The notes beneath the pieces are model-generated. The model saw only the letters and a program-made list of their open reading frames with translations. It did not search any database and was not told the DNA's origin. Made by a program: the position numbers and the translations under genes. 32,440 nucleotides of DNA from an uncultured Bacteroidales bacterium (GTDB lineage: Bacteria; Bacteroidota; Bacteroidia; Bacteroidales; Paludibacteraceae). Shown here piece after piece: positions 1 to 31,900 of the stretch (position 1 is its first letter; each line of letters opens with the position of its first letter). Location of the stretch: assembly GCA_903830915.1 (NCBI GenBank), contig CAIKVR010000264.1:1-32440 (forward strand), in the 5' to 3' direction.

Positions 1-3
1 CAT

Positions 4-1386
4 TCATTCCAACAGTCCTTTTACTTTTTTTCGTTCTGCTTGATTGCATGGAGATGGCATTTGCTTACAGAAGTTTTGCCAATCTGCCAATAATTGCTCT
101 TTCACAATTACTTCTTTTTTCGAAAGATCATTCTTTTCAGCCTCGTCTACTTCTAAATTGAAAAGTTTTACTTTGTCTTTATTCACAATTAGTTTCCATT
201 TACCGCTTCGAACTGCTCCATTTTCGTTTAGATACCAAAACAATTGTTTGTGAGGCTCTTCAATTGTTTTATTTTGAAGAAATGGCAATAAATTCACACC
301 ATCAATTTTTACAGCTTTTGAAATATTTACATTTGCAGCAGCACAAGCAGTAGGATAAATATCCAGTGACGAGACCGGTTTGTCATAAACCATTCCTGCT
401 TTGAGTTTCCCCGACCAACGAATAATAAAGGGTTCTCGAATACCACCTTCAAGAAGTTGCCCTTTATGACCCGATAAATTTCCTGCGCTTCCGAGCAATA
501 CCTTCGGCCATTCTTTTGGCCAATCAACCGTATATCCCAACGTGGGACCATTATCGCTTAGGAAAATAATCAGCGTATTCTGGGATAATTTTTGTTTATC
601 GAGTTCTTTCAATATTCTACCCACATTCTCATCCATTGAAAACAACATGGCTGCATAATATTGCAAAGCTTCATTTTGTAAATGGCTAACCATTTGCTGA
701 TGTTCTATTTTAGCCTGCATAGGTGAATGTGGCGCATTAAAACCAACATACATAAAAAACGGATTTGTTTTATTTTTGCCAATAAACTCGATAGCTTGTC
801 GACCAATTCTATCGGTCAGGTATTCATCACCGGGGCGTTCTGGTCCCCAAAGAATTCGTTTTGCATCACCAATAGCTTTAGGCTCATCCACCCCCTTGTA
901 ATGACCTTTTGAATCCGGAAAGTATTCTCCGCCAAAATGCATAACGGAATACGTTTCGTCGAAAGTAGTTTTTGGATAACCCGGAAGGTTATATTTTCCG
1001 AAAATAGCAGTTCGATAGCCTCCTTGTTTTAGCGTTTCATGTAGTAATTTCTGTGATACAGGAATACGATCCGAAATGCCTGGAATTTCAGCCCAAGCAT
1101 CAGTGTTGTCCTGTATACCAAATCGTTGCTGATAGGCTCCGGTTAATATCCCATACCTTGAAGGACCTGAAATTGGAGCAGTTACGTACCCATTTGTACA
1201 ACGAACACCCTCTTTTGCCAAACGGTCAATATTAGGAGTTGGTATCATTTTTCCGCCATAACAACCAGCATCTCCCCAGCCCATATCATCAGCCAAAATG
1301 ACAATAATGTTTGGGTTTTCTTGCGAAAATAAAGAAGAAGTAGCTAATGTTCCTCCCATTATGCAGAATGACATAAGTTTTTTCAT
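4..1386 (-). CDS. S1-family sulfatase, secreted, Ser-type FGly motif
   Basis: Predicted formylglycine-dependent sulfatase that removes sulfate esters from the target glycan. Residues 1-22 look like a signal peptide, so it is probably periplasmic. The metal-binding start of the alkaline-phosphatase fold is visible as ILADDMGWGD (D33, D34). The maturation motif is S73-G-P75-S76-R77, followed by YGILTG. This is the Ser version of C/S-x-P-x-R, which in known systems is oxidised to formylglycine by an anSME radical-SAM enzyme rather than by FGE. A second metal-site signature, LSDNGP, lies near residue 280. The 460-residue length fits the family. It is the last gene of the PUL seen here; its stop is at 4-6, so the gene is complete. 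The last 40 codons are duplicated downstream of the GH16 gene. Sulfatase identity is secure; the substrate (a sulfated galactan) is inferred from neighbours. Confidence 0.95.
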   Translation of the reverse strand: MKKLMSFCIMGGTLATSSLFSQENPNIIVILADDMGWGDAGCYGGKMIPTPNIDRLAKEGVRCTNGYVTAPISGPSRYGILTGAYQQRFGIQDNTDAWAEIPGISDRIPVSQKLLHETLKQGGYRTAIFGKYNLPGYPKTTFDETYSVMHFGGEYFPDSKGHYKGVDEPKAIGDAKRILWGPERPGDEYLTDRIGRQAIEFIGKNKTNPFFMYVGFNAPHSPMQAKIEHQQMVSHLQNEALQYYAAMLFSMDENVGRILKELDKQKLSQNTLIIFLSDNGPTLGYTVDWPKEWPKVLLGSAGNLSGHKGQLLEGGIREPFIIRWSGKLKAGMVYDKPVSSLDIYPTACAAANVNISKAVKIDGVNLLPFLQNKTIEEPHKQLFWYLNENGAVRSGKWKLIVNKDKVKLFNLEVDEAEKNDLSKKEVIVKEQLLADWQNFCKQMPSPCNQAERKKVKGLLE

Positions 1387-1457
1387 TTGTTCGTGTTATT
1401 TATTATTGTTTAATAGTTAATAGTATGAAACAGGTTCAAAGAAACAGTTGAAGATTA

Positions 1458-1547
1458 TTACCACACATCTGATCTAAAAGGTGATGCCGGTAATCCTTTC
1501 ACATCGAAAAGAGTCACTTCGGGAATTCCCTCCCATGCATACCTAAT
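1458..1547 (-). pseudogene. 3' remnant of a sialate O-acetylesterase-like gene
   Basis: On the minus strand a 29-codon stretch ending in TAA reads IRYAWEGIPEVTLFDVKGLP followed by ASPFRSDVW. The pattern RYAW...L(Y/F)...GLPASPFR(S/T)D-W matches, from memory, the extreme C-terminus of the sialate 9-O-acetylesterase family (SGNH-type carbohydrate esterases common in PULs). An in-frame TAA lies directly upstream, so nothing longer is encoded. It sits between the sulfatase start and the duplicated sulfatase tail. I interpret it as the last codons of a gene otherwise deleted. The translation is certain; the family assignment rests on recalled consensus. Confidence 0.6.
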
Positions 1548-1584
1548 AGGTTAGACCTAACTGTTTTATGCGGTAACTTGCAGT

Positions 1585-1705
1585 CATTCATTCCAACAGT
1601 CCTTTTACTTTTTTTCGTTCTGCTTGATTGCATGGAGATGGCATTTGCTTACAGAAGTTTTGCCAATCTGCCAATAATTGCTCATTCACAATTGCTTCCT
1701 TTTTC
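1585..1705. repeat. 121-bp direct repeat of the sulfatase 3' end
   Basis: Positions 1585-1705 repeat positions 1-121 in the same orientation. The first 99 bases are identical and I count three mismatches overall (at 100/1684, 110/1694 and 115/1699). The copy at 1-121 is the 3' end of the intact sulfatase gene. This copy overlaps the end of the GH16 gene: the substitution at 1684 contributes to the GH16 stop codon (1682-1684). Such high identity implies recent duplication, gene conversion or deletion between paralogues. Confidence 0.95.
1588..1704 (-). pseudogene. 3' remnant of a second sulfatase gene
   Basis: Within the 121-bp repeat, a minus-strand frame different from that of GH16 encodes about 38 residues, starting KKEAIVNEQLLADW and ending KKVKGLLE before TGA. 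It is nearly identical to the C-terminus of the intact sulfatase (KKEVIVKEQLLADW...). No other sulfatase sequence adjoins it: upstream DNA immediately becomes the LamG domain of the GH16 gene. It is therefore a stub left by loss of a paralogous sulfatase, or a copied tail. It is not expected to make a product. Confidence 0.8.
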
Positions 1706-3499
1706 ATGAATTTCTCTGTTGTAAACTTTTATCTTACTTAAAGTTCCCCTGAATCTTTTCATCTTGGCCGATTCTTTTTCGGCAGGGGTGAGCTGAACCA
1801 TAACATCTCCTACGGCTTCAAAACCGCCATCCACACAACCTAATCTGCCGGCGGCGGTCGAATCGTTGGTCATCTTGGTTATTCCTGTTTCGGTTTTTAA
1901 TAATTTTCCATTGGCATAAATATTGGCTGTGCCTTTATTAAATGTACAGCTTATTCTTGAATCCTTGCCTTCAGTATAAGCATTTTCTGCAGCAACTACA
2001 AAATTATCGGTTACACTTCCTATTCTAAACAATACACCGCCTTTATTGGTCAATTGAACTGCCCAGCCCGCATTACCGGTTTTTGGCATTCTAATAACCG
2101 GAGTCATGTTTGCCTTTTCGGCTGCATTTACCGTAAAATCTACCGACATAGCATCGCCACGACCGACACATCTATCAAAAAAATAGAATTTTTCATCGCC
2201 TTTGAAATTAATAGGACTTCCCATTGCCAGTTTCCAGATAGGGTCTCCTACCAATACCAGTGGTTCCTGTTTTTTCACGACCTGACCGGGTAAAGCTGGT
2301 TTCATAAAGTTGACATCGTCGATTTCCAACCATTCTCCACCATCACCTTTTGACGTGATAGTAATTGTAACGGTGTTATTACTTACTTTTATATTAGAAA
2401 TGGTGATTTTAGTCCACTTCTCATTGCGTTTCAAATCAAAAGCAATTTCTTTTCCACCGAAATCACTTACTTTTATTTGTGCATTGATTTGTCCGCCCGA
2501 GCTTTTTACCATGGCCGTCAGTTCGTAGTTACCATTCATAATGTATTCCAGTTTTTGAGTAGAAGTCACTTCATAAGCGGTTTCAAAACCTTGTCGTAAT
2601 TTATATTCGTTTCGCACGGCATCGCCTTTTACAATAAGTGTTGCTTTTTCTGTTCCTTTTGTTGCCCATGCCACCGGTTTGTTTGGATTGGTTTTGTCCT
2701 GATTGTATTCAAAATCTCCATTGGGCAAAATATTGATTCCAGGATAGTCTTTGGCATAATATCTGAAATACTTGAAGGTGGATTCGCCCGGAAGTTTATC
2801 CACATCAACTTTGCCTGTACCGTTCAAAGCGGTTAGCCAAACTGCCTGTGCTGCAGTAAGTTCATTCCACTCAGCACGTGCCACTTCCACACCATTGTCA
2901 TAAAATATCACTCCTTCGGGGGTGTATTCATAGGCATCCAAAAGCCATCCGCCTTCCATCAATTTAAAGGGAACATTCGCTCTATGTGGCCATGGCACAT
3001 ATCCGCCATATTTCTTGGGAGCAAAGTGTATATACAAATTATTACATCCCACACTCGTTTTGGAATCAATTTCGTAGGAATCAATTTCGAAAATATTATT
3101 ATTCGAAATGCTTCCACCCGCCTGCCAAAAGGAGGTGTGTACTCCTTTTCCATCCATAAACGGACGTGACAGTGATTCATAATAGCCGTAACCAAATTGG
3201 TGCTTGCTTATAATCCCACCGCCGGTATATTGCATTTGTCCATCTACCATTTCGTATCTGGCCGCTATATGCAATGCTCCATCTGATACCGAAACGTTCT
3301 CTTTGCGATTGTAACCGTTCAGATTACCGCCTTTTCGCCAGTCGGTTCGATATTTCCAGTCGTTCTCGTTCAATTTATCACCATCAAACTTTTCTTCGTA
3401 AAGAAGCACATAACCTTTATTTACAGGAACTTGCGCAAACAGTGTGAGTGGGAATAAAACAACTAAAAATAGAGAATTGAAAATTTGTCTTGTCTTCAT
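1682..3499 (-). CDS. GH16 endo-galactanase-like enzyme with CBM and LamG domains
   Basis: Glycoside hydrolase family 16 enzyme, likely an endo-acting hydrolase of beta-linked galactans (agarase, porphyranase or kappa-carrageenase-like). Residues 1-22 form a signal peptide. The catalytic beta-jelly roll spans about 28-255 and carries the beta-bulge motif E138-I-D140-S-Y-E143 (ExDxxE: nucleophile, helper Asp, acid/base), preceded by the usual aromatic HTSFW. Residues about 256-400 form a CenC-like (CBM4/9/22-type) beta-sandwich. Residues about 415-598 form a LamG-like concanavalin fold ending GTLSKIKVYNREI. There is no T9SS domain, so it is probably periplasmic or lipid-independent. It lies 19 bases downstream of the GH95 gene in the same operon. 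The last codons run into the duplicated sulfatase tail, so the final few residues (about HEKGSNCE) may not be ancestral. The GH16 call is strong; the exact substrate is open. Confidence 0.88.
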   Translation of the reverse strand: MKTRQIFNSLFLVVLFPLTLFAQVPVNKGYVLLYEEKFDGDKLNENDWKYRTDWRKGGNLNGYNRKENVSVSDGALHIAARYEMVDGQMQYTGGGIISKHQFGYGYYESLSRPFMDGKGVHTSFWQAGGSISNNNIFEIDSYEIDSKTSVGCNNLYIHFAPKKYGGYVPWPHRANVPFKLMEGGWLLDAYEYTPEGVIFYDNGVEVARAEWNELTAAQAVWLTALNGTGKVDVDKLPGESTFKYFRYYAKDYPGINILPNGDFEYNQDKTNPNKPVAWATKGTEKATLIVKGDAVRNEYKLRQGFETAYEVTSTQKLEYIMNGNYELTAMVKSSGGQINAQIKVSDFGGKEIAFDLKRNEKWTKITISNIKVSNNTVTITITSKGDGGEWLEIDDVNFMKPALPGQVVKKQEPLVLVGDPIWKLAMGSPINFKGDEKFYFFDRCVGRGDAMSVDFTVNAAEKANMTPVIRMPKTGNAGWAVQLTNKGGVLFRIGSVTDNFVVAAENAYTEGKDSRISCTFNKGTANIYANGKLLKTETGITKMTNDSTAAGRLGCVDGGFEAVGDVMVQLTPAEKESAKMKRFRGTLSKIKVYNREIHEKGSNCE

Positions 3500-3518: not shown

Positions 3519-5852
3519 TTAAATAGAATTGAAATCTGTCAATTTCATCGTTTTTTGTTTGTTCGTAATAAGATTAATCGCCTTTTTTGCATTTCCGTAG
3601 CGAATTGAATACTTTCCTGTTTTGTCGGCTATAAGTGTTACTTCCTTTAACTTACATTCTTGCCAACGAATTGAAACGGTTATACCACCTCTTGCCCGAA
3701 GTCCATTTACTTCACCATTTTTCCAAGATGTAGGCATAGCTGGCAACAATACAATTTCACCACCTTGACTTTGAAGCAGCATTTCGGCAATACCTGCCGT
3801 TATTCCAAAGTTTCCATCAATCTGAAAGGGTGGGTGACAACAAAACATGTTTGGATAAATTCCTCCTGCATTACCATAGTCCGTCTTTAATGCAGTTTTT
3901 AAGTTGAAAAATCTCTGTATCATTTTATTGGCATGCTCTCCATCTTGTAGACGTGCCCAAAATAGAATTTTCCAAGCAATACCCCATCCGGTTCCTCCAT
4001 CACCTCGAATTTCCAAGGTTTTTCTGGCAGCATTCATCAACTCAGGATGTGCGTTGTTGATTTGATTGCTGGGAAATAAGCCATAAAGGTGCGAAGTATG
4101 ACGGTGTTGTGGATCCACTTCAGCATATTCTTCTATCCATTCCAGCAACTGACCTTTACTTCCAATACGCATAGGCAAAAGCTTGGATTTCTTATCCAAA
4201 ATTTGTTTTCGAAATGCTTCGTCAACTTCTAATATTTTGGCAGAAGCATCACATATTGAAAATATATCATTTACAATTTGTGTACTCATGGTAGAGCCCA
4301 TGGTTACTGAATATTTTTTTCCATCTTTACCATAATACATATTTTCTGGCGAGGTAGTTGGACCCGCTACAAGGTAACCTAGCGTAGGATGTGCAACTAG
4401 AAAATCATTGTAAAACAAAGCTGCATCACGCATTAAGGGATAATATTTCCCTAGAAACTCTTTATCGCCCGTGAATTGATAATGTTCCCAAATATGGGTG
4501 CAAAGCCAGGCTGCCGACTCCTGAAACAAAAGAGAAGATTGTCCACGTAATTCATTAATCCCCCAAGGCGTGCTTCGTATGCACATCTCCCATCCATTAC
4601 AACCGTATCGCTCCTTTCCTGATTTCTTGCCCGCTGGATACATGCGTTCCATTTGCTCGAACATGGGCTGAGTTAGTTCCGATAAATTACAAACTTCTGC
4701 CGGCCAATAATTCATCTGGAAATTAATATTCACCGTGAAATCGCAAAACCAAGCTGGTTTGAAATCTTTATTCCAAATACCTTGCAAATTAGCAGGTAAA
4801 CCTCCCGGATGTGAACTTGAAATAAGCAAATACCTGCCGTATTGAAACAGAATTGCCGTAAGATTGGGGTCAACATTATTATTTATAGCTTTGATGCGTT
4901 CAACTGTCGATAATTGTGGATTTGCATTTTCTCCCAATTTTAATGTTACCCTATTGAAATATTGCTGATAGTCTTTTACATGATCCTGCAATATTCTACT
5001 AAACCCTTTATCGGATGCTTTGCTAAGTATTTCAGCACTTTGCTTTATCGGATCCTTTTTCCAGAAATCGGTATTGGCTGACAAATATATCAAAACCTCA
5101 TCGGCATTGCTTACCACTATCTTTCCATCTTTGGTTGTTAATTTACCCCCCTTGGCTATAACCTTCGTTTGTGCATGAAAAGTGGCACCACCAAATTCAC
5201 AGGTACCGTCAAGTATGATTCCATCAAAGCCTTGAATAGATGAAACAGCCCCCTTTTCGCGATTCAGGGCTATACTGAAACTCAGATTATTCTTTTTACT
5301 GCTGGTAAGCTTTATCAAAAATACCTTGTCTACAGCACTGATAAACATGTCTCTTCGATATGTAGCAGTTTTTGTTTTAAATTCTACTGAGGAAGTAGCG
5401 TTACTTAAATCAAGAACTCTTTTGTATGATAAAACAGAGTCTTGTATATTGTTGAACGACAACCATAAATCGCCCAGAGGTTGATAACTACCATAACGTG
5501 GATCATTTTTGGTGGTACAGTATTTGGTGGTCAATGAATCTGCCTTTGCAAAATTACCCTCGAATAGTGCCGTTCTAATCTCTGGTATTTTCGCAACCAT
5601 TTCTTTGTTTTCCGTAAAATGGTATTGTCCCGACCACACACTTGATTCGTTCAAATAGATGCGTTCCGTACGAATTCCACCCATCACCATAGCCCCGAGA
5701 CTTCCATTTCCCAATGGCAAGGCCTCTTCCCATACTTTAGCCGGCTTATCATACCAAAGGCATAAATTGTCGTTTTTTAGGGAATTGTTTCCAGCCAATA
5801 AAATGGTAGGCAATAGAATCAACGACAGAATATAAAAAGTTTTATTTTTCAT
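3519..5852 (-). CDS. GH95 alpha-L-fucosidase / alpha-L-galactosidase
   Basis: Inverting exo-glycosidase of family GH95, which removes alpha-L-fucose or alpha-L-galactose. It has a signal peptide (1-20), the N-terminal beta-domain signature EEALPLGNGSLGAMVMGG followed by ERIYLNESSVWSG, and an (alpha/alpha)6 barrel. Residues matching the known active site are visible: N375 and N377 in TVNINFQMNYWPAE, E503 in TSPENMYYG and D679 in FQIDGNFG. The HRHTSHLYGLFP motif (583-594) is also present. The 777-residue length is typical. It follows the SGNH hydrolase gene by 15 bases. With a GH86 and a sulfatase in the operon, alpha-L-galactosidase activity on porphyran-type oligosaccharides is attractive, because L-galactose and L-fucose differ only at C6. 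Sequence alone does not decide between the two. Confidence 0.95.
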   Translation of the reverse strand: MKNKTFYILSLILLPTILLAGNNSLKNDNLCLWYDKPAKVWEEALPLGNGSLGAMVMGGIRTERIYLNESSVWSGQYHFTENKEMVAKIPEIRTALFEGNFAKADSLTTKYCTTKNDPRYGSYQPLGDLWLSFNNIQDSVLSYKRVLDLSNATSSVEFKTKTATYRRDMFISAVDKVFLIKLTSSKKNNLSFSIALNREKGAVSSIQGFDGIILDGTCEFGGATFHAQTKVIAKGGKLTTKDGKIVVSNADEVLIYLSANTDFWKKDPIKQSAEILSKASDKGFSRILQDHVKDYQQYFNRVTLKLGENANPQLSTVERIKAINNNVDPNLTAILFQYGRYLLISSSHPGGLPANLQGIWNKDFKPAWFCDFTVNINFQMNYWPAEVCNLSELTQPMFEQMERMYPAGKKSGKERYGCNGWEMCIRSTPWGINELRGQSSLLFQESAAWLCTHIWEHYQFTGDKEFLGKYYPLMRDAALFYNDFLVAHPTLGYLVAGPTTSPENMYYGKDGKKYSVTMGSTMSTQIVNDIFSICDASAKILEVDEAFRKQILDKKSKLLPMRIGSKGQLLEWIEEYAEVDPQHRHTSHLYGLFPSNQINNAHPELMNAARKTLEIRGDGGTGWGIAWKILFWARLQDGEHANKMIQRFFNLKTALKTDYGNAGGIYPNMFCCHPPFQIDGNFGITAGIAEMLLQSQGGEIVLLPAMPTSWKNGEVNGLRARGGITVSIRWQECKLKEVTLIADKTGKYSIRYGNAKKAINLITNKQKTMKLTDFNSI

Positions 5853-5867: not shown

Positions 5868-7238
5868 TTATCGCTCTTTAGAAACTAACATAAAACGATG
5901 TGAAACCGGTTGTGCCAATTGATAAACTCTTGAACGTAGTTCATCCGCCTCTTTTTCTAGCATTTTTGCATTGGGTTTAACTACTTTATACTTTTGCATT
6001 TGTGTTTTTAGATAAGTATTAGTAGGAAATTTGGCGGTAAACAAAGAGTCAAGATAAGCTACACTTAAATTTAAATCTGATTTGTTTTTAAAGTCATTTA
6101 AATACTTTATATCCATATAACTTATGGTTCGCAATTTAGCTTCATTTTCCCACAATTTGGTCAATTCTTTTTTCACGGTTTCCGACTGGCGATATTGGGG
6201 TGTTTTGATGAGGGAAGCCAAATTAACCCCCTGCAGCAATTCTTCACTTGAAAATATGCCTATTAAAGTGCTGTCTATTCTCAACTCGTAGTTTCCAAAA
6301 GTAAGATCGCTAACTTGAAGAATTTCCTGATTTAGTTCTTGCATGATTGGAACCAACGAAAGGCCTGTTTTTTGCGATTCGCTAAATGTGAATGGCAAAG
6401 CGTTTTCCTTACATATAAATTCGACGCCTTTAGCATTGTATTTCAATTTAGTAACAGTACAATTGGCGGATGCTGATTTGCCTTTCATTGCATTTTTGGC
6501 AACTGCAATTTTTGATATATAGGTAGGTGATTTTGTTGTTCTCAGAAATTGATACGCCATTATCAAATTACCAGTAGCACCCGGATGAATACGGTCTGCA
6601 CCTACTACAGTTGCCGAAGAGTCTTTTTGTTGAATCGTTTTATTAATCTCAGTCATAATCGACCAATAATCAACGGTTTGCAATTTGTATTTATCGGCCA
6701 GTGTTTGCATGTAATCGGCACATGTCTTCAGTGCGTCATTAACCCCTAAATTATTGGGTCTTGCTATTTTAGCTGTCTGGTCGAATATCGAAGGTTTTTG
6801 CAGAATAACACTGACTTTTTTATCAATTAGGATACGCACGATACTATCCAGATTTTTTCGATATACTACCAAAGAATTTTCGCGTTTTTTTAATGTGTCA
6901 GCACTAAGAGTTATGGCTGAACCATAGAGATATCTCATCACATCATTCATCCCAATCATAATCACGGCATGAGTGGGTTTGTGAACCAGCACATCACTTT
7001 CCAAGCGATTCAAAACGCCTCCTGTTACATCTCCCGAAATGCCGCAATTGTAAAACGCAACCGGACTTTCGGGAAAGCGGGTAACGTAGTATTGTAGGAT
7101 ATTGTGGTGAAATTCACCGGCATGCGTAATGCTGTTTCCAACAAAGCATACACGGTCACCTTTTTTAAAGAGCTGTGCAGGAGTATCAAATACAATGCAA
7201 AATAGCAAAATGACAAAAAGAGTGAATTTTGTTTTCAT
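5868..7238 (-). CDS. SGNH/GDSL-family esterase, secreted
   Basis: Predicted carbohydrate esterase of the SGNH hydrolase superfamily, acting in the periplasm after a signal peptide (about 1-21). All four blocks are present: FVGNSIT with nucleophile S36, NCGISGDV with the oxyanion Gly, IGMNDV with N98, and ADRIHPG with D215 and H218. The SGNH fold ends near residue 230. The C-terminal 220 residues include a beta-rich stretch followed by a helical tail (Lys/Leu-rich from about 370), an arrangement common in Bacteroidota PUL esterases. It sits between GH86 and GH95 in the operon, so it probably removes acyl groups that block exo-enzymes. The ester type (acetyl or other) cannot be read from the sequence. 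Confidence 0.9.
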   Translation of the reverse strand: MKTKFTLFVILLFCIVFDTPAQLFKKGDRVCFVGNSITHAGEFHHNILQYYVTRFPESPVAFYNCGISGDVTGGVLNRLESDVLVHKPTHAVIMIGMNDVMRYLYGSAITLSADTLKKRENSLVVYRKNLDSIVRILIDKKVSVILQKPSIFDQTAKIARPNNLGVNDALKTCADYMQTLADKYKLQTVDYWSIMTEINKTIQQKDSSATVVGADRIHPGATGNLIMAYQFLRTTKSPTYISKIAVAKNAMKGKSASANCTVTKLKYNAKGVEFICKENALPFTFSESQKTGLSLVPIMQELNQEILQVSDLTFGNYELRIDSTLIGIFSSEELLQGVNLASLIKTPQYRQSETVKKELTKLWENEAKLRTISYMDIKYLNDFKNKSDLNLSVAYLDSLFTAKFPTNTYLKTQMQKYKVVKPNAKMLEKEADELRSRVYQLAQPVSHRFMLVSKER

Positions 7239-14424: not shown

Positions 14425-14958
14425 TTATTTTACTTGTTTTACCTCAGACAACTTAACATCGTCTACAAAATATTCCCCTTTAACAAATTCTAACATAAAT
14501 TTGGCTTCCGGTATATCTACACCATCAAACTCATATTTAAACGTGGTCCATTCTCCTACTGGTAAGTTGTCTGTTTTTTTTGTTTTCAGAACAAACGGAT
14601 TCTCCTTCTTAAATCCGGCAACATGATATATTGTCAATTGAACTGCACCTCCTTTGGTTATTACTTTCATCATAAATTCAAGGGAGTATTTTTTGCCACT
14701 TTCTACTTTAAACACTACTTTATCGGGAGTACTTGTATATAACTTACATCTGGTTTCTCCCATAGATAATTTGAGCCCAAACTTGCTATTGTTAGCGGCC
14801 TCAGAACAAACGGAAACCTTTTCTTTGTCTTCTCCAAACACAGACCAACCTTTCATTGTGCCCAATTCAAAATCAGCGTTTAATTTTAAAAGATTTTCTT
14901 GTGCGCGAACACCCAAAACTGAACTTAAAGTCAGTAAAATAATCATTAGTTTTTTCAT
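14425..14958 (-). CDS. Small secreted CenC-like carbohydrate-binding protein
   Basis: A 177-residue protein with signal peptide MKKLMIILLTLSSVLGVRA and a single beta-sandwich of the CenC (CBM4/9/22-like) type. It opens NLLKLNADFELGTMKGWSVF, has a central aromatic-rich strand pair (GKKYSLEFMMKV, GEWTTFKYEFDG) and closes EYFVDDVKLSEV. The same fold is the middle module of the GH16 enzyme in this operon. It lies 33 bases downstream of susD, the slot where PULs often place SusE/SusF-like surface glycan-binding proteins. I see no lipobox cysteine, so it may be periplasmic or secreted rather than lipid-anchored. Binding of the target galactan is inferred from position and fold. Confidence 0.8.
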   Translation of the reverse strand: MKKLMIILLTLSSVLGVRAQENLLKLNADFELGTMKGWSVFGEDKEKVSVCSEAANNSKFGLKLSMGETRCKLYTSTPDKVVFKVESGKKYSLEFMMKVITKGGAVQLTIYHVAGFKKENPFVLKTKKTDNLPVGEWTTFKYEFDGVDIPEAKFMLEFVKGEYFVDDVKLSEVKQVK

Positions 14959-24054: not shown

Positions 24055-24070
24055 TTGTAAACGATTACAA
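24055..24070. promoter_or_regulatory. LacI-type operator 1
   Basis: TTGTAAACGATTACAA is a near-perfect palindrome with a central CG (TTGTAA-nCGn-TTACAA), the classic form of LacI/GalR-family operators. It lies between the divergent regulator and the symporter operon. Binding by the adjacent LacI protein is inferred. Confidence 0.75.
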
Positions 24071-24084
24071 TTAAGAATAAATCA

Positions 24085-24100
24085 TCGTAAACGATTACAT
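24085..24100. promoter_or_regulatory. LacI-type operator 2
   Basis: TCGTAAACGATTACAT repeats the core GTAAACGATTACA of operator 1, with less symmetric flanks. The two centres are exactly 30 bp apart, close to three helical turns, so two dimers would bind the same DNA face. It lies just upstream of the predicted lacI promoter. Confidence 0.7.
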
Positions 24101-24116
24101 TTGGATGGATATTGTA

Positions 24117-24144
24117 TTTGCTTTGAAATTTATATATATATTTG
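24117..24144 (+). promoter_or_regulatory. Candidate promoter of the LacI-family regulator
   Basis: TTTG at 24117-24120 and TATATTTG at 24137-24144 (TAnnTTTG) are separated by 16 bp, slightly shorter than the usual Bacteroidota spacing. Transcription would begin near 24151, after the upstream ATG at 24105 and before the ATG at 24171. This supports the latter as the real start. Confidence 0.5.
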
Positions 24145-24170
24145 CATTGAGTTTTACCAACCCAGATTCA

Positions 24171-25196
24171 ATGAAAAAATACGCAACTCTTAAAGATATA
24201 GCCAATGCTTTGAAAATTTCAACAGCAACAGTTTCACGTGCGTTGGCTGATCGTTGGGATGTAAATGCAGAGACTAAAAGGATTGTTTTTGAAGAGGCAA
24301 AGCGTCAAAACTATAAACCGAACCCCATTGCAAAACGTCTCCAAAACAGACATTCTAAGACTATTGGATTGGTTGTTCCCGAATTTAAAACATCTTTTTT
24401 CCCTAATATTATTTCAGGTATTCAAAAGGTAGTGGATGAAGCCGGGTTTCAACTGCTAATTACACAATCGCAAGAAACGATGGAAGTAGAATTGCGTAAC
24501 CTGAAACTGTTGGAAAATAATATGGTGGAAGGAATTCTTATCTCAATTACCCGTGAAGGTGAAAATTCGGATTATTATCAGGAATTGATTGATAGTGAAA
24601 TTCCGATTGTTTTTTTTAATCGTGTGTCCTCAAGTATTGAAGCTCCAAAAGTAATTATAGATGATTACAAATTAGCCTTTTTTGCTACAGAACACTTAAT
24701 ATACAGTGGATTTAAAAAGATATATCATTTTGCCGGACCCGAGAAACTCAGCGTCACCATGGAGCGAAAGAGGGGTTTTCTTGATGCAATGAAAAAACAC
24801 CATCGGGATATATCAGAAAATTCTGTATTGACAACCGGCGTTTTCAGCGATAAAGGTTACGACGCTATGAAAATGCTCATTCAAAAAAACGATTTACCCG
24901 AAGCTATATTTTGTTTTAATGACCCTACTGCATTGGGTGCTTTGAAAGCCATTAAAGAAGAAGGACTCATATGCCCTGACGATATTGCTTTAGTTGGATT
25001 CTCCGAAACTGAGCTTGCACTTTTAGTTGACCCACCACTAACAAGCGTTCAACAACCCTCCTTCGAAATGGGTGAAGTTGCTGCACGATTACTGATTGCA
25101 CAAATCACACAAAATCCTGTGCCAGAGCCTGAAACTGTTTGTTTAATAGCAAAATTGAATGTCAGGAAATCATCTATTAAAGTAAAGGGGGATTAA
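24171..25196 (+). CDS. LacI/GalR-family transcriptional regulator
   Basis: Sugar-responsive repressor or activator, 341 residues from this start. The N-terminal HTH is clear: TLKDIANALKISTATVSRAL, followed by the hinge region NYKPNPIAKRLQNRHSKTIGLVVP. The rest is a periplasmic-binding-protein-like effector domain (SFFPNIISGIQKVVDEAG, PEAIFCFNDPTALGALKA, DIALVGFSE, PLTSVQQPSFEMGEVAARLL). An in-frame ATG at 24105 would add 22 hydrophobic residues that the family does not have and lies upstream of the predicted promoter, so I chose 24171. It is divergent from the PUL operon, with two operator-like palindromes between them, and most likely controls it in response to a released sugar. PULs more often use HTCS, SusR or ECF/anti-sigma systems. 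Confidence 0.93.
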   Translation: MKKYATLKDIANALKISTATVSRALADRWDVNAETKRIVFEEAKRQNYKPNPIAKRLQNRHSKTIGLVVPEFKTSFFPNIISGIQKVVDEAGFQLLITQSQETMEVELRNLKLLENNMVEGILISITREGENSDYYQELIDSEIPIVFFNRVSSSIEAPKVIIDDYKLAFFATEHLIYSGFKKIYHFAGPEKLSVTMERKRGFLDAMKKHHRDISENSVLTTGVFSDKGYDAMKMLIQKNDLPEAIFCFNDPTALGALKAIKEEGLICPDDIALVGFSETELALLVDPPLTSVQQPSFEMGEVAARLLIAQITQNPVPEPETVCLIAKLNVRKSSIKVKGD

Positions 25197-25425: not shown

Positions 25426-26376
25426 CTATTCTTCAATCATATAATCTGCAATATCAAGACCTTCGGAACGTTGAACTTCAGTTGCAATATCTTCCAAAAT
25501 TTTAGATATTTTAATTTCGCAATTCACTGATTGTTTTATTTCTTTGACTTTTGTACTCCATTTCTCATAACCTCCTAAGTCTGGGAATAAATTTATATTT
25601 CGTTTTTTCAATACTTGACATTTATCAATTGACAATCCGTTCAGGTTTCCGGCTCCAAGCCATACTAAGTCCGGAAAAACAGCACTAGCTATTAATGCTG
25701 ATTTCTCACTCTCTACGATTGCCACGGATTTATCCGGGTAAAGTTTTAGAAGGTGTTCACCGAAAAAACATTGCTGCAAATTAAAATCTTCTGGTAATGT
25801 TCCGGCTTTCTTTAGTTTATTATGCACCCAATCAATCGCTCCGCTTTGATGTTTTATTCTTTTTCCAGTTTCGAGGTTGTATTGCATGATTTTACCTGTA
25901 CGGACTTTACCATTAATGTCGATTTGCCAAAAGATAACTTCTTTATTTTTGGTTGCTCCGAGTAAGTAGTTTTCAAATACCTTTTGGATTTGTTCTTCGG
26001 AGAAATGGTTTTGCAAAAATGAAACGAAATTGCTGTGAGGGCTTAGGGAATCAATTATGTAGGAGAAAGGGATAGTTCCGATTGGTTGGGATGGGGTTAT
26101 TTGTTTTATTGTATCTGGTATATGAGACGTGCCATACGACCTCACCCCAGCCCTCTCCAAAGGAGAGGGAGAAAGAGGATTTTCCGTAAAATATTGTTTT
26201 GGGGTGTAATGATAACCACATTTGGATTCACGATTACATCTGCCAACGGTATGATGAATATGTTCGTGGGTATTGCCATTTAGGTATAAAGTAAAGCTAT
26301 GTTTGGTTTCGCATGAAGGACAGGTATGGCGGGTGGATTTGCCTTTGTATTTTTGTAAATATGGAGAAGTGAACAT
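25426..26376 (-). CDS. Toprim/zinc-finger DNA primase-like protein of a mobile element
   Basis: A 316-residue protein of the type found in Bacteroidota integrative elements (DUF6371/Toprim-like). An N-terminal zinc ribbon is formed by C19-P-S-C22 and C47/C53 (RCNRESKCGYHYTPKQY). A Toprim-like half follows: VAIVESEKSALIASA with E222 and INLFPDLGGYEKW with D266. Between them, residues about 68-79 read LSPSPLERAGVR. That stretch is encoded by a GC-rich palindrome (26151-26169) that looks like an inserted repeat kept in frame. The gene would act in replication of the excised element. It ends the mobile-element gene run, 230 bases from the LacI gene. No relaxase or mobilization gene adjoins it, although such genes often do in related elements. 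Confidence 0.8.
   Translation of the reverse strand: MFTSPYLQKYKGKSTRHTCPSCETKHSFTLYLNGNTHEHIHHTVGRCNRESKCGYHYTPKQYFTENPLSPSPLERAGVRSYGTSHIPDTIKQITPSQPIGTIPFSYIIDSLSPHSNFVSFLQNHFSEEQIQKVFENYLLGATKNKEVIFWQIDINGKVRTGKIMQYNLETGKRIKHQSGAIDWVHNKLKKAGTLPEDFNLQQCFFGEHLLKLYPDKSVAIVESEKSALIASAVFPDLVWLGAGNLNGLSIDKCQVLKKRNINLFPDLGGYEKWSTKVKEIKQSVNCEIKISKILEDIATEVQRSEGLDIADYMIEE
26151..26169. repeat. GC-rich palindromic repeat inside the primase-like gene
   Basis: CCCTCTCCAAAGGAGAGGG forms an 8-bp perfect hairpin with a 3-base loop in otherwise AT-rich DNA. The surrounding segment (about 26140-26180) resembles a short interspersed repeat that I recall from many Bacteroidota genomes, usually between genes. 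Here it is in frame and adds about 12-20 residues to the protein. Confidence 0.6.
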
Positions 26377-26942: not shown

Positions 26943-28289
26943 TTATTCATTGCATATTTTCGAAATGTATTGCCGGGTCAATCCAATGGAATCTGCAAAG
27001 GCTTGTTTATTCTTGATGCCGTATTCCTTTTGAATTATCTTTATTGCTTCTACAGGAGTTGTTTTGGTGGCAGTTTCGATATTTTCTATACGAAGAATAT
27101 TTGAATTAAAATAATTGCAAAGATTTATGGCGTATTGTATGGCTTCTTTCGTTATCTGCCCCTTTAACCATTCGGCATTATCGTATATACCCCTAATAAT
27201 CTGAATTATCAAGGAAATACGGAGTACCTGAATTTCCATTTTTGCATACGTGGCCCGGAGAAAATTGTTCGAACAATTGTTTACCAAATCTGCTGTCTGA
27301 TTGGCATATTCAATAAAGAATGTCTTAGCTTCAGTGGATAGAATAAAGGGATTCTCTGATCTTGGTAAATAGTAGCAATGTTTGATTAATTCATCATACC
27401 GGTCAAGTACAATTCTATTTGGTGTTTTCTCGGAATACTTTTGCTTTTTAATCACTTTGTGATAGACATACAGAAAGCGACTTGCAAAGCCGTTTTCTTT
27501 GAGGCTGTTGTTGTTTAATGCAATGTCCAGTACTTCGGGTTGGATAGTGCCGCAAATGGTCATAAATGGCTCTGGAATCTGAAGCGGTTCTTCGCTTTTC
27601 CGATTGATACAAAACTGTGCATTATTGAAAATGGATAAATATCGGCTTATTTCTCCGCTTTTATTGTACCTGCCAAAGTCAGCGAACCATCCTGATAATT
27701 CATCCCTGCATAACGAAACAGCACCATTGTTGCGAAACATAGTTTGATATAAACTCTCGGGTGTAAAATCGTCAATCAGGCATTGTTTGAAAAATGGCTT
27801 TTCAGGTTCCTGGCTTCTGGTTTGTTTTGCTTCTGAACATTCACTTTTCCAATTGCTGAGTTCTACCTGATAAGCATCATAGCTCAAGTTTTCGAGCCGT
27901 TGCAATGGGCGAAAGGCAGCTGCCATGGGTTCCGACTTTCCTACGCCGGGAGGTGCAACAAACATTAACCAGAGTTGACCAAAGTTTCGGTATTTACCGC
28001 TGTCAATACTGAATTTCTTCGTGATTGCAGAACTCACAGCACACAAAGCTGATAAAACAGGGAATTCAACCGGCACACCGTATACTTCAGAAATTTCCAA
28101 TCCAAAATCAAGTATGACCTGAGGTAATCCGTTGGTGGGGAAAACTGTATCATTTGAATTGAAATTCATCGTTTTGGTTTGAATTTCTGCTTTGAGCTTC
28201 TCAATAAAATTAGTACTTTTGTATTGCTCTTGATTATTAGCCTCTTCGATACCTGCAACGTTCGAAGGGGCTTCTTTTTTTGTTGTCAT
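26943..28289 (-). CDS. DUF3987 P-loop ATPase/helicase-like protein of a mobile element
   Basis: A 448-residue protein of the DUF3987 type, common beside primase-like genes in Bacteroidota integrative elements and phage-like islands. A Walker A motif, APPGVGKSE, lies at 112-120 after a hydrophobic strand (LWLMFV), and a Walker-B-like region includes LCRDELSGWF. The C-terminal 45 residues form a helix-turn-helix-like end (AIKIIQKEYGIKNKQAFADSIGLTRQYISKI), suggesting DNA binding. It probably helps to replicate or unwind the excised element. Its ATG overlaps the stop of the upstream HTH gene by 4 bases (28286-28289), so they are translationally coupled. Confidence 0.85.
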   Translation of the reverse strand: MTTKKEAPSNVAGIEEANNQEQYKSTNFIEKLKAEIQTKTMNFNSNDTVFPTNGLPQVILDFGLEISEVYGVPVEFPVLSALCAVSSAITKKFSIDSGKYRNFGQLWLMFVAPPGVGKSEPMAAAFRPLQRLENLSYDAYQVELSNWKSECSEAKQTRSQEPEKPFFKQCLIDDFTPESLYQTMFRNNGAVSLCRDELSGWFADFGRYNKSGEISRYLSIFNNAQFCINRKSEEPLQIPEPFMTICGTIQPEVLDIALNNNSLKENGFASRFLYVYHKVIKKQKYSEKTPNRIVLDRYDELIKHCYYLPRSENPFILSTEAKTFFIEYANQTADLVNNCSNNFLRATYAKMEIQVLRISLIIQIIRGIYDNAEWLKGQITKEAIQYAINLCNYFNSNILRIENIETATKTTPVEAIKIIQKEYGIKNKQAFADSIGLTRQYISKICNE

Positions 28290-28651
28290 GACTTCTTCTT
28301 TGCCGTTTTAATGGATTTATGATAGTTGTCATCTAAGAGCTTCTGAATGTCGGATAAACGGTAATAGATTTTGCCGCTTATTTGAGAATAGCTTATTAAA
28401 TCAGTATCTCGCCAAAGCTGTGCGGTGCGAACACTGAGACACATTAATTCCATGAATTCTTCGTTTGAAAAGAATGGGTCAGAAGGCTGTTTGCGAATTT
28501 CATTCAGATTCTGAATCAAATCGTTTAATTTTTTCATTAGTTCATCGTGTTTCTGACTGATCTCTTTCAACGATTCCTGAATTAGTTCATCATCGAGCAT
28601 CTTCTTTCGAATGTCTGCTTCAAACTTTTCGAAATGTTCTTTGAAGTTCAT
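28286..28651 (-). CDS. Excisionase-like HTH protein with N-terminal coiled coil
   Basis: A 121-residue protein. Residues about 1-53 are heptad-rich and charged (EISQKHDELMKKLNDLIQNL), a likely coiled coil. Residues about 60-112 are a MerR/HTH_17-type DNA-binding domain (FFSNEEFMELMCLSVRTAQL, then WRDTDLISYSQISGKIYYRL). Such proteins lie in pairs near integrase genes in Bacteroidota elements, where they act as directionality factors or element regulators. It overlaps the genes on both sides by 4 bases (ATGA), so all three form one operon. Excisionase function is inferred. Confidence 0.85.
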   Translation of the reverse strand: MNFKEHFEKFEADIRKKMLDDELIQESLKEISQKHDELMKKLNDLIQNLNEIRKQPSDPFFSNEEFMELMCLSVRTAQLWRDTDLISYSQISGKIYYRLSDIQKLLDDNYHKSIKTAKKKS

Positions 28652-28998
28652 CTGTTACCCTTTCCATTCGATAATTGGTTTTCTTTTTCCTCTATAAATT
28701 CTTCAATGGTTTGAATCCGGTTGGATAACAACCAGTCTTCTATCTCATTCCGTTTAAAAATAACCCGTGCATTTTTCTTGTAATAGGGAATCTTCTTATC
28801 GCAAATCATCTTGTTAATCGTATTGACCGAATAACCGGTCAGCAGACTACATTTTTTCTTGTCTAATGTGTCGGTTAAAGACTCTTGTTTTGTTTGAATG
28901 ATTGGTTGTGGAACCATTGTACCCATGAGTTCTTTGAACTGGCCAATGGTTAGTGCTGCCAAGGGAGTTTCGTTTGTTGGTTGGAATTTTGTCTCCAT
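28648..28998 (-). CDS. Excisionase-like HTH_17 protein
   Basis: A 116-residue protein, first in the three-gene operon with the next HTH gene and the DUF3987 gene. Residues about 50-98 are a helix-turn-helix of the Xis/HTH_17 type: KKCSLLTGYSVNTINKMICD, then KKIPYYKKNARVIFKRNEIEDWL. The first 45 residues are polar and possibly disordered. It probably binds near the attachment site or the element's promoters. A TAnnTTTG-like element (TACTTTTG, minus strand, 29064-29071) lies about 65 bases upstream, and a cluster of GTCGGACT boxes lies beyond it. Confidence 0.85.
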   Translation of the reverse strand: METKFQPTNETPLAALTIGQFKELMGTMVPQPIIQTKQESLTDTLDKKKCSLLTGYSVNTINKMICDKKIPYYKKNARVIFKRNEIEDWLLSNRIQTIEEFIEEKENQLSNGKGNR

Positions 28999-29214: not shown

Positions 29215-29215
29215 T

Positions 29216-30262
29216 TTAGCTGTTTTTTTTTATTGAAATGGTTATAATTTGTTCTATTTCTTTGTACATCCGACTTCGTTCGTATTTGTTTTTAGTTGGT
29301 TTTACAAAAACTGCTGTATTAAAAGCCGTTTTAACTATGTTTGCAATGCATTCACCGCAAAGATGTTGTATTACATTTGATAACAAAGTGGGTGAATCAT
29401 CCCAAAATAAAAATTCGGGTTTTTTAAGCGGTCTTCTACCAAACCAAAATAACCATACATCACTGTTCGGATTTACCAGCTTTAATTTGTGTGATAGATG
29501 ATGCATGACTTTTATCAGACATTCATCGGTGTGAGAGGAATTGAATTTAGGCAGAACAATGTCTTCAGAATCATTTTTAGTCTCAATCTCGTATGTGTTG
29601 TCGTTGAAAATAAATAAATTGCATTTGGATTGATTTGCTAAACGTTCCAGACTTATATCGAAAAATATGAATGCACTAATCAATCGCTCTACAAAATCTA
29701 AATGATTAATCAGCCGAACAGATAAATCGTATATAGGATAGATTTTAGAACAATCATCATTCTGACAAGTAACATTATCCTCAATGATAAAATTATGATC
29801 CAAAATGTATCTGAATAACTCTTTGACTCTGTAATTGAGTTTTGATTCTTCTACTTCCTGATTATGAACATTGCTTTTATCAAGATAATGTAACAACATG
29901 TTTGCGTAAGGAATTATTCTTTCTCTTGTTTTGAGTATTAACAGGTTATTCTCAATTTCCATAATTGTTTGCATGTATAACTCTGATGATTCGCAAACCG
30001 ATTCTTCTGCAATTGAATCAGTGAAATCATTTACCCAAGTGAGCGTTTTAAACTTCAGTTTAGCTCTGAAACTTAATGGTAATTCTTTTCTTATTTCATT
30101 TTTGATAGGGTAGAAGCCATAGGATCGAATCTGGGTTCTTAGTTTTTCTTCGTCAAGTTGGTTTGTTTTGCTGCAATATGAGTTATACCAGCATAAATAG
30201 ATTGCTTCTGAAAGAGAATCGAAATTCTTTAGGTATTGGTTTGTTAGTTCCCGGTGAATCAT
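29216..30262 (-). CDS. Unrecognised 348-residue protein of the mobile element
   Basis: I do not recognise a family. The protein has no signal peptide or membrane segment and is rich in Leu, Ile, Asn and Glu, with a mainly helical look. Visible features are a CQNDDC pair near residue 165, a well-conserved-looking stretch SDVWLFWFGRRPLKKPEFLF followed by WDDSPTLLSNVIQHLCGECI, and a basic C-terminus (KPTKNKYERSRMYKEIEQII). It lies between the integrase and the excisionase-like genes and is bounded by hairpin terminators on both sides, so it is a separate transcription unit. Position suggests control of excision or another element function, comparable in place but not in sequence to RteC. No function can be assigned. 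Confidence 0.7.
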   Translation of the reverse strand: MIHRELTNQYLKNFDSLSEAIYLCWYNSYCSKTNQLDEEKLRTQIRSYGFYPIKNEIRKELPLSFRAKLKFKTLTWVNDFTDSIAEESVCESSELYMQTIMEIENNLLILKTRERIIPYANMLLHYLDKSNVHNQEVEESKLNYRVKELFRYILDHNFIIEDNVTCQNDDCSKIYPIYDLSVRLINHLDFVERLISAFIFFDISLERLANQSKCNLFIFNDNTYEIETKNDSEDIVLPKFNSSHTDECLIKVMHHLSHKLKLVNPNSDVWLFWFGRRPLKKPEFLFWDDSPTLLSNVIQHLCGECIANIVKTAFNTAVFVKPTKNKYERSRMYKEIEQIITISIKKNS

Positions 30263-30379: not shown

Positions 30380-31684
30380 TTATAGTACTTTCGCTGCTTC
30401 GTCTATTACATTGCTATTAAAGCTGTCAAGATAGGTATTTGTTGTTTTCAAGTCTTTGTGTCCTAAAATTTGAGAGATTACTTCTCTCGGAATTTCATTG
30501 TTCTGTAAGCTCATGGCCATTGTATGCCTGCTAACATAGGATGTAAGATCAATGTCATTAATGCCAAACTCAAGTGCCATTTTATTGAGATAAGTATTGA
30601 ACTTTTTCAATCTTGTTTTTAAGTGTTTGTATAAACCCTCACCGTTAAGACCCTCCACTGAAATAATTGGCAATAAGTAATTTTCTACCGGTTGCTTAAG
30701 AATGCAAAGGTCGTTAATCAGTGTTTGAAGCTCATCTGTAAGCTTGATGTTGATTGCTTTGGCTCCTTTGCTGTTTTTGGTTTTATGCCGTTTGTAAACG
30801 ATATAAAGTCCATTCTCAAACCTCTTAATATTGTCAGGAGTTAGATGTGCCATATCAACAAAACTAATTCCATAACAAAAGTAAGAAAAAAGAAATAATT
30901 TACGAGCATATTCATTAACTTTATTTTCAGAATGTGTGTTTTTTATTTTCACAAGGTATTCTGTTGGTAAATATCGCTTCTCTGTTTCTTCTGCTAATTT
31001 GGCAACTTCAAAACCTCCTTTTCCAAAAGGATAGGTCGTCACACTTGCCTCTTTGGCTTCAATAGCCTGATTTAGAATAGCTCGCAAAGTTCTGAAATGA
31101 ATCATTCGCGAATTGCTTGAATTTCCTTTTCTCTGAACAATCCTCTTGTTTCCTTTTGAACTAGTATAAACAGACTCACGTGGCATTTGTAGAAAAGAGT
31201 CAAAAGCCCTGACATACTTAATGTCGATTTCAGAGAATATCTTTTTATCAAACTTTTTATCAAAAATCTCAAGCATATCCAATGTTCTTTGGTAACAAAG
31301 CGCATTTCCGATATGATCTGTTTCTTTGAGATTTTTTATCTGATTTTCAAAAAAAGTCTTAACTTTGCCTTTCTTAGAACGATTAAGGAAAGCTTCTTCG
31401 AATTGATTGAGAGTCCAGTCGATTTTGTTTTCTTCAAAATCTTTAATGGTCTTTTCGGCTTTAGTTTCTTGTTCGTTCAAATAAGCATTGTTCTTATCGT
31501 GGAGCGGATTAATTCGTTTGTCCTTTTTGTAGCGACAGAAAGTTTCATCCCATTGTGCCGGAGTTGCCGACATGTTTAATCCAATAAACTTCTTTTGGCC
31601 ATCTTTCGCAATGCGTAAACAGATTGGATTTGTACCGTCTTTACTCGTGTCAAATGTGCGAAGGAAAATTTTGAACTTTGCCAT
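30380..31684 (-). CDS. Tyrosine recombinase/integrase
   Basis: Site-specific recombinase of 434 residues, with the three-part architecture of Bacteroidota integrases. An arm-binding N-terminal domain (about 1-95) contains the typical GLNMSATPAQWDE. A SAM-like core-binding domain spans about 105-215 and the catalytic domain about 235-434. Visible catalytic positions are R386 in SYVSRHTMAM, H409 in ILGHKDLKTT and the nucleophile Y418 in NTYLDSF. The position of the first conserved Arg reads YGISFVDMAHL, so Ser274 replaces Arg, as I recall for IntDOT-type recombinases. The first His of HxxR is also replaced (Y383). The gene lies 170 bases from a tRNA-Pro 3' fragment, the probable attachment site. 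It catalyses integration and excision of the element to its left. Confidence 0.95.
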   Translation of the reverse strand: MAKFKIFLRTFDTSKDGTNPICLRIAKDGQKKFIGLNMSATPAQWDETFCRYKKDKRINPLHDKNNAYLNEQETKAEKTIKDFEENKIDWTLNQFEEAFLNRSKKGKVKTFFENQIKNLKETDHIGNALCYQRTLDMLEIFDKKFDKKIFSEIDIKYVRAFDSFLQMPRESVYTSSKGNKRIVQRKGNSSNSRMIHFRTLRAILNQAIEAKEASVTTYPFGKGGFEVAKLAEETEKRYLPTEYLVKIKNTHSENKVNEYARKLFLFSYFCYGISFVDMAHLTPDNIKRFENGLYIVYKRHKTKNSKGAKAINIKLTDELQTLINDLCILKQPVENYLLPIISVEGLNGEGLYKHLKTRLKKFNTYLNKMALEFGINDIDLTSYVSRHTMAMSLQNNEIPREVISQILGHKDLKTTNTYLDSFNSNVIDEAAKVL

Positions 31685-31708
31685 TGTCTTATGTATTTAA
31701 AAGTTTCT

Positions 31709-31741
31709 CTACCTTTTTCTCTACCTTTTTTCTACCTTTTT
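31709..31741. repeat. Triple tandem CTACCTTTTT upstream of the integrase
   Basis: CTACCTTTTT occurs at 31709-31718, 31721-31730 and 31732-31741, a period of 11-12 bases (one helical turn). It is between the integrase start and the attachment core. Spacing and position fit arm-type integrase or accessory-factor binding sites. The integrase's own leader also spans it. Confidence 0.6.
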
Positions 31742-31802
31742 GAGTAAAACTTAGCATAATTATCGCTAAATCTTTCAAGTTCTAAAGGTTGATAATCAGA
31801 TA

Positions 31803-31810
31803 CAAATATA
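31803..31810 (-). promoter_or_regulatory. Candidate -7 element for the integrase
   Basis: The minus strand reads TATATTTG (TAnnTTTG), 119 bases upstream of the integrase ATG and about 45 bases from the attachment core. No clear -33 partner is visible. The leader would include the triple CTACCTTTTT repeat. Confidence 0.35.
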
Positions 31811-31852
31811 CACAAATACAATGAATTAGAAAAAAATATTAGGAAATATTTA

Positions 31853-31900
31853 CTGGTCCTGGGGGACCAGTGGTCGCAAGTTCGAATCTTGTCATCCCGA
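31853..31900 (+). other. Attachment site: tRNA-Pro 3' half at the element end
   Basis: From about 31859 to 31900 the sequence is the 3' half of a tRNA. It comprises the anticodon loop CTGGGGG, the 3' anticodon stem ACCAG, the variable region, the T-arm GCAAG-TTCGAAT-CTTGT, the acceptor strand CATCCCG and the discriminator A. CCA is not encoded. The acceptor end and GGG anticodon fit tRNA-Pro. There is no 5' half (no D-arm and no CGGGATG strand); upstream is element DNA. ACTGGTCC at 31853-31860 pairs with GGACCAGT at 31864-31871, giving inverted arms around the loop as expected for a tyrosine-recombinase core crossing over in the anticodon loop. This makes it the distal att copy, with the element to the left. 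Confidence 0.75.

Follow-up and report, generated by a model that had tools for sequence, protein, structure and literature searches.

Known elements and the present locus

Elements of the non-replicating Bacteroides unit (NBU) type carry an integrase at one end beside their tRNA target, together with small regulators, a primase and a mobilization (relaxase) gene. The porphyran polysaccharide utilization locus (PUL) of Bacteroides plebeius contains genes for glycoside hydrolases (GH) of the GH86, GH16 and GH117-like types and for a sulfatase. This PUL is postulated to have arrived on an integrative conjugative element (PMC5849685). The locus considered here is a stretch of 32,440 nucleotides ("the window") from an uncultured bacterium of the Paludibacteraceae. 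It holds a PUL, a module of mobility genes and, towards its right end, a tyrosine integrase beside the 3' part of a tRNA-Pro gene. The PUL is most likely the cargo of an integrative island at this tRNA-Pro, with the left end of the island unassembled.

As proposed for B. plebeius, a red-algal galactan PUL would here have travelled as one unit on an integrative element, and GH86, GH16, GH117-like and sulfatase genes are common to both. However, there is no relaxase match here, the target is tRNA-Pro(GGG), the element has a helicase-primase module and its host group is no known gut seaweed-eater. With the NBUs it shares the terminal integrase next to a tRNA target, the small regulators and the primase gene. 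Unlike the NBUs, which carry a relaxase, the related islands described below have no PF03432 match on their contigs. Tycheposons (PMC10872708) are likewise large tRNA-bordered islands with a tyrosine recombinase and variable cargo. However, the likeness is one of layout, as seen in the sister islands only, and the phylum and the tRNA are different. DUF3987 proteins have been predicted to be helicases that work with a primase in mobile element replication (PMC5862659). In the modules covered there, DUF3987 is fused to archaeo-eukaryotic primases, whereas here its neighbour resembles the DnaG and T7 gp4 primases. No description of this tRNA-Pro island family was recognised in the open-access literature, most subscription papers being outside that scope.

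The window is the whole of contig C264 of a 4.74-Mb draft genome, coded G000 here. It was compared with a genus sample of 48 genomes, G000 included. These relatives were deposited as Paludibacter sp., uncultured Bacteroidales, Paludibacteraceae and, once, Porphyromonas, and isolate names such as Erken suggest lakes as their habitat.

An integrase beside a tRNA-Pro fragment

The right-hand part of the window contains the following features.

30380..31684, minus strand: tyrosine integrase (Arm-DNA-bind_5, Phage_int_SAM_5 and Phage_integrase; Pfam arm, SAM-like and catalytic domains)
31707..31743, plus strand: P arm between the integrase gene and the attachment (att) core, a threefold direct repeat of (CT)CTACCTTTTT; arm type as in the complete G066 island
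31859..31900, plus strand: att site, the 3' part of tRNA-Pro(GGG) from anticodon loop to acceptor end (exact match)
31913..31940, plus strand: terminator-like hairpin behind the tRNA fragment
31952..31976, plus strand: degraded CTCTAC-type arm sites right of the fragment (P'-like), from local alignment with the window's P arm
32052..32438, minus strand: unclassified open reading frame (ORF) with an open end, right of the att site (no Pfam match)

Positions 31859-31899 are letter-identical to the 3' part of tRNA-Pro(GGG), and this is the sole match on either strand of the window at up to 35% substitutions. ARAGORN finds no tRNA in the window, and Rfam gave no match in positions 23900-32440. A first-pass annotation, made from the sequence alone, had seen a tRNA-Pro 3' fragment with the integrase inboard and a terminator on its right, and no second tRNA-Pro in the window. 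The exact match, the Pfam domains and the hairpin bear out the former, and the ARAGORN and core searches the latter. The locus thus has the mark of a tRNA-targeting element, a tyrosine integrase beside a 3' tRNA fragment. By alignment, the integrase reading frame is complete. The protein has no match among solved structures. Relatives occur in 38 phage records, all below 60% identity. The best (52%) comes from an unannotated contig of 8.3 kb, and a search of this contig for a tRNA-Pro core gave no match.

What if the resemblance to a tRNA were due to chance? This was examined in a family sample of 78 integrase loci taken from one-genome-per-species data, allowing up to 7 of 30 substitutions in the tRNA-Pro core. 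tRNA-Pro 3' sequence in the expected orientation lies within 700 bp upstream of the integrase at 42 of the 78 loci, and 9 of these matches are exact. The controls gave 1/78 on the wrong strand and 0/78 downstream, and chance similarity was rejected on these counts. At six of the 42 loci, all from other genera (L222, L223, L224, L233, L236 and L238), it is the intact tRNA-Pro itself that stands beside the integrase. At 11 further loci of the 42 an intact tRNA-Pro lies 6-11 kb inboard, in a locus set whose 10-kb flanks favour the detection of small islands. These are small islands with the geometry that the first-pass annotation assumed. The remaining 36 of the 78 loci have a different neighbour or too little sequence. 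Upstream of four integrases (L089, L080, L081 and L083) the core position is taken by a shared sequence other than tRNA-Pro, TCTAAAGGGGA.

The intact tRNA-Pro(GGG) of the same genome is on a different contig (G000:C325:29054-29130), and two further tRNA-Pro 3' fragments are on C49 and C173. Because the tRNA pieces agree with the intact tRNA from the anticodon loop onward and diverge before it, the crossover probably takes place in the anticodon loop. At least four arm types are present at the tRNA-Pro places of this genome. Given these arm types and the several fragments, what has accumulated at one tRNA-Pro gene of this genome seems to be a stack of islands or remnants.

To judge from its letters, more than plain chromosome lies right of the window's fragment, since this flank has degraded arm sites of the type found on the integrase side. 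In local alignment with the window's P arm, 31952-31976 scores 16.5, against a mean of 8.4 and a maximum of 12.0 for 60 letter shuffles. The ORF at 32052-32438 most likely lies outside the window's island. It has homologues in 5 of the 47 other genus genomes, on contigs different from those bearing the tRNA-Pro of these genomes, and no tie to any known tRNA neighbour was found.

Complete sister islands at the same tRNA

The window's integrase has a match at 1e-40 or better in 16 of the 48 genus genomes, its own included. Three complete islands, running from an intact tRNA-Pro to a fragment, were found in the genus: G066:C5 (22.2 kb), G027:C10 (73.5 kb) and G032, where C3 plus C37, contigs that overlap by 127 bases, give 59.2 kb. 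None has a further att core inside. In all three, the genes for the integrase, two helix-turn-helix (HTH) proteins, the DUF3987 protein and the primase-like protein are at the fragment end, in the same order as in the window. The window's module next to the integrase consists of these genes.

29216..30262, minus strand: 348-aa protein of no recognised family, adjoining the integrase (no Pfam, NCBIfam or PHROG match)
28648..28998, minus strand: HTH_17 protein, possible excisionase or regulator (Pfam HTH_17 7.5e-08; weak PHROG excisionase match, 1.3e-05)
28286..28651, minus strand: second HTH protein (Pfam HTH_17 below the cut-off; homologues in sister modules)
26943..28289, minus strand: DUF3987 protein, predicted replicative helicase (Pfam DUF3987 3.2e-56; PHROG DNA helicase 3.5e-45)
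25426..26376, minus strand: Zn-ribbon and DUF6371 protein, primase-like (Pfam; Foldseek)

The 348-aa protein has homologues in most sister modules; G066 is without one, has a different gene after the integrase, and its DUF3987 protein is merely 27% alike. Relatives of the DUF3987 protein were absent from viral contigs and present in 19 plasmid records, all under 60% identity. Its structure prediction (mean predicted local distance difference test score, pLDDT, 48) was not used. The model of the primase-like protein is better (mean pLDDT 72), and Foldseek pairs it with DnaG (1.8e-05) and the T7 gp4 primase (2.4e-05), at template modelling scores of merely 0.34-0.42. This resemblance, together with the DUF3987 match to a phage helicase family, makes it plausible that the two proteins replicate an excised circle. 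The primase-like protein is C-terminally shorter than most of its relatives. Sequence resembling the last primase codons of the relatives persists for 120 bases past the present stop, to 25306.

From the module to the rebuilt tRNA, the content of the sister islands varies, and this is their cargo. The cargo of G027 includes SusC and SusD, and from a reading of the translations it would also include methyltransferase and type I restriction genes. That of G032 includes SusD and a SusC-like gene, and that of G066 a type IIG restriction enzyme. A 268 to 272-aa protein is encoded at the tRNA end of each of the three islands, and G027 also has an M15 peptidase there, with a look-alike in G032. The 268-aa protein, a putative DUF6266 protein, has no match in Pfam, NCBIfam or PHROGs. 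Two more copies of the layout, of 40-60 kb, are on G032 contigs C22 and C8. Their translations read as if the cargo were arsenic, phosphate-transport and metal-efflux genes, which it seems to be. An island of 7.8 kb with a more distant integrase is found at G004:C187.

The same short repeats are found at both ends of the sister islands. The local alignment of the P arm with its own P' scores 25.5 in G066, 23 in G027, 24 in G032, 24 in G004 and 20.5 in G015, where the two are on two contigs. Pairs of unlike arm types score 6-12.5, whereas like types paired across genomes score 14-24. The P arm of C49 has no good P' match (7.5 to 12.5).

A rebuilt intact tRNA at the far end, placed to the left in the first-pass annotation, is thus the observed geometry in the three complete islands and at 11 of the 42 loci. 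For the window's island, whose closing end is unassembled, such a rebuilt tRNA would lie farther to the left; the intact tRNA of its genome is on another contig and borders another island end.

The PUL in the cargo slot

The rest of the window is taken up by the PUL.

24105..25196, plus strand: LacI-family regulator of the PUL (Pfam LacI, Peripla_BP)
24056..24099, plus strand: two LacI-type operators (TGTAAACGATTACA type), 30 bp apart, at the LacI/symporter gap
22209..23915, minus strand: sodium:solute symporter
19908..22199, minus strand: FAD-dependent oxidoreductase-like protein
16555..19803, minus strand: SusC-like TonB-dependent transporter
14992..16548, minus strand: SusD-like protein
14425..14958, minus strand: carbohydrate-binding protein (CBM_4_9)
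10686..14291, minus strand: GH16-like enzyme with SLH, Ig-like and type IX secretion system (T9SS) domains
9572..10672, minus strand: GH43/GH117-like enzyme (weak match to anhydro-alpha-L-galactosidase structures)
7302..9539, minus strand: GH86-type beta-agarase/porphyranase with a T9SS tail
5868..7238, minus strand: GDSL esterase
3519..5852, minus strand: GH95-type enzyme
1682..3499, minus strand: GH16-like enzyme with a laminin-G-like domain
4..1386, minus strand: sulfatase

The SusC/SusD pair with carbohydrate-active enzymes identifies a PUL, and the GH86-type enzyme, the weakly matched GH117-type enzyme and the sulfatase are the set expected of an agar or porphyran PUL. The GH86 protein matches solved agarases and porphyranases at 1e-37 to 3e-18, and the GH117-like match is weak (7e-10). 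The substrate would therefore be a sulfated galactan of the agar/porphyran type. At 1e-200, a search with the SusC of this PUL across 393 genomes of the order matched the window's own genome (1/393) and none of the 392 others, in a set that listed no other member of the window's genus. Within the genus, the closest porphyranase in the 47 other genomes is 62% alike.

The stop of the primase-like gene and the PUL are 229 bases apart, and the PUL, on the inboard side, takes the cargo position of the sister islands. A second line of evidence comes from G011:C818. There the same module with its primase-like gene is followed by a single small gene and then by a LacI gene 68% alike, the order being convergent as in the window; the contig ends inside LacI. 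No att copy was found between 25196 and 25426, the gap between PUL and module. Because the PUL sits in the cargo slot of the sister islands, no att copy separates it from the module and a 68% LacI adjoins the same module in G011, it is likely to be cargo. The first-pass annotation had put the PUL inside the element, and the layout of the sister islands, the cargo slot and the G011 LacI support it in this. Its simple picture of a single island fares less well. The PUL is in the cargo slot, but several islands are stacked at this site and the right flank carries degraded arm sites. It had also named two findings that would speak against it. One, an att copy at 25200-25420, was sought and not found. 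The other, a relative with the PUL and without the mobile genes, was not seen either, in a genus sample whose closest porphyranase is 62% alike and in an order-level SusC search that listed no other genome of the genus.

How far does the PUL extend? Contig C362 (18.4 kb) meets the left end of the window by an exact overlap of 39 bp. The overlap is inside a repeat (window 1-121 versus 1585-1705, 97.5%). A repeat of about 240 bases, consisting of a sulfatase 3' end plus downstream sequence (window 1-121 and 1463-1705; C362 1-161), is seemingly present twice in the PUL, once across the contig break, and a repeat at a contig end may have broken the assembly. Seven genes of C362, among them GH35, GH98-like, GH2 and GH43-like genes, all have the same direction. 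C362 has a double LacI-type operator at 18256/18286 (to 18299), with a 30-base spacing like that of 24056/24086 in the window. This pair is at the contig end, perhaps before a further operon. Thus the PUL probably continues from the window into C362 and, if so joined, is probably at least 43 kb long. C362 has no tRNA. Its far end overlaps no other contig, the single match being one of 79% over 55 bases in C98.

On this evidence, a scheme for the island can be proposed. The integrase would recombine at the anticodon loop of tRNA-Pro(GGG). The island would bring a new tRNA 3' half with a terminator at one end and leave the old 3' half (31859-31900) at the other. The HTH proteins probably control excision, and the DUF3987 helicase and the DnaG-like primase probably replicate the excised circle. 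All DNA inboard of the primase-like gene would be cargo slot, filled here by a LacI-controlled sulfated-galactan PUL from 25196 to the contig end and probably into C362. The window would then be the integrase end of a large integrative island, one of several islands and remnants stacked at this tRNA. The missing left end would lie beyond the PUL, and the island may still move.

Points against and alternative readings

Several observations do not sit easily with the PUL as island cargo. The tRNA-side end of the window's island is not assembled. The intact tRNA-Pro(GGG) on C325 is followed by GTAAAAC-type arm sites, where the window's P arm scores 9.5, and the only P' of the window's type found in the genome is the degraded one at 31952-31976. 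The far-end 268-aa protein has a homologue in the window's genome that is just 63% alike and in another context, on C342. The join to C362 rests on 39 bases within a repeat, and the source genome is only a draft of 436 contigs, 87% complete and 4.9% contaminated. The islands of more distant integrases are often small (the 11 of 42 loci above). Five of the other genomes in the 48-genome sample have porphyranase homologues (46-62% identity), and the contigs concerned lack this integrase. Finally, G+C content is without clear contrast among the PUL (37.2%), the module (35.4%) and a chromosomal stretch of C325 (37.4%), and a foreign origin by composition was rejected for this reason.

The degraded P' could be the end of an older island, part of a tandem copy, or the island's own left end at a circle junction. 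The PUL can be cargo under each of these readings, and the island end is unproved. If the contig did cross the junction of an excised circle or of a tandem copy, 31859-31900 would be attP and the stretch to its right the left end of the island, a possibility that overlaps with the cargo reading. Arm sites of the same type do lie on both sides of the core (16.5, where shuffles reach at most 12). Right-hand arms are missing from the fragments of G066, G027 and G032 (7.5-9), and the genome yielded no second P' of this type. However, the right-hand sites are degraded relative to the P' of G066, and a similar degraded P' is found at the tRNA of G031, where no family integrase passed 1e-40. Moreover, the ORF at 32052-32438 differs from the gene that usually marks the left end, and its homologues are on contigs other than those of the tRNA-Pro. 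A contig across such a junction is unlikely.

Perhaps instead an island lost its tRNA-side end by deletion and left the module as a remnant, and the PUL belongs to the resident chromosome and adjoins that remnant by chance. The unseen left end, the shortened primase-like gene, the integrase-free contigs of the porphyranase homologues elsewhere in the genus and the lack of G+C contrast would all fit. However, the integrase frame is complete and the PUL occupies the cargo slot of complete sister islands. A chance neighbour is also hard to reconcile with the 68% LacI beside the same module in G011, whose integrase is just 63% alike. This makes a remnant beside resident DNA improbable. That the module is a complete small island of about 7 kb with its tRNA-side end at 25200-25420 has precedents in the 7.8-kb island of G004:C187 and the other wider-family loci with an intact tRNA-Pro 6-11 kb inboard (11/42, G004:C187 included), but it is scarcely credible and was rejected because no att core lies in 25200-25420 or the rest of the window, and the three complete tRNA-Pro islands with the closest integrases measure 22 to 73.5 kb.

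A mosaic integrase

Twelve integrases (the window's plus L074, L075, L077-L081, L083, L085, L089 and L091) were compared by domain identity. Residues 1-90 of the window's integrase are 89% identical to G066, which has the same CTCTACC repeats, and just 55% to G027. In residues 91-434 the order is reversed, with 81% to G066 and 91% to G027. The integrases of G062, G067, G011 and G032 C22 share an N-terminal type (72-78% to G027) and have TTACAC-like arms. Their remainder differs (65-68%), and no tRNA-Pro core was found with them. Since N-terminal identity tracks the type of arm repeat while the rest tracks a different history, it seems that an exchange takes in both the arm-binding part and the arm sites and leaves out the target-choosing part, so that the tRNA target stays. 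It is this paired swap of the arm-binding part of an integrase and the DNA arm sites, with the tRNA target kept, that seems to be new here.

Probable movement between genomes

There may also be a trace of movement at this site. C49:1-3758 is 99.87% identical to G015:C195 9518-13275, with the identity ending at the att core. Left of the tRNA, six chromosomal pieces are 72-78% identical between the window's genome and G015, and a seventh, of 61 bases, is 84% identical. On these alignments it looks like a recent passage between species of another island at the tRNA-Pro site; mixing of two drafts is also possible. The first genes of the C195 island encode a CBM protein, a DUF5107-TPR protein and a sugar transporter. 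No match to the relaxase family PF03432 was found in the draft genome of the window, nor on the contigs that carry the islands of G027, G032 and G066, in a search that did not extend to other mobilization families or secretion genes and with the window's island incomplete.

Significance

The transfer of PULs by mobile elements is known chiefly from gut Bacteroides and from conjugative elements. Here a PUL of probably at least 43 kb would be carried by a tRNA island in which no relaxase was detected, in a group beyond the genera for which such transfer has been described. At this tRNA, sister islands have other PULs or a restriction system as their cargo. A tentative generalisation, possible but less than even in likelihood, is a family of relaxase-free islands with two-part integrases, in which a core fixes the target, be it tRNA-Pro or a different site, and an N-terminus recognises the arms and is swapped together with them. 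Stacked islands might then each be excised by their own integrase alone, and the tRNA gene would serve as a modular shelf to which whole PULs, restriction systems and further clusters are added, on which they are exchanged and from which they are passed between species. Paired swaps of arm part and arm sites would thus be a testable answer to the question of how such islands share one tRNA gene without excising each other.

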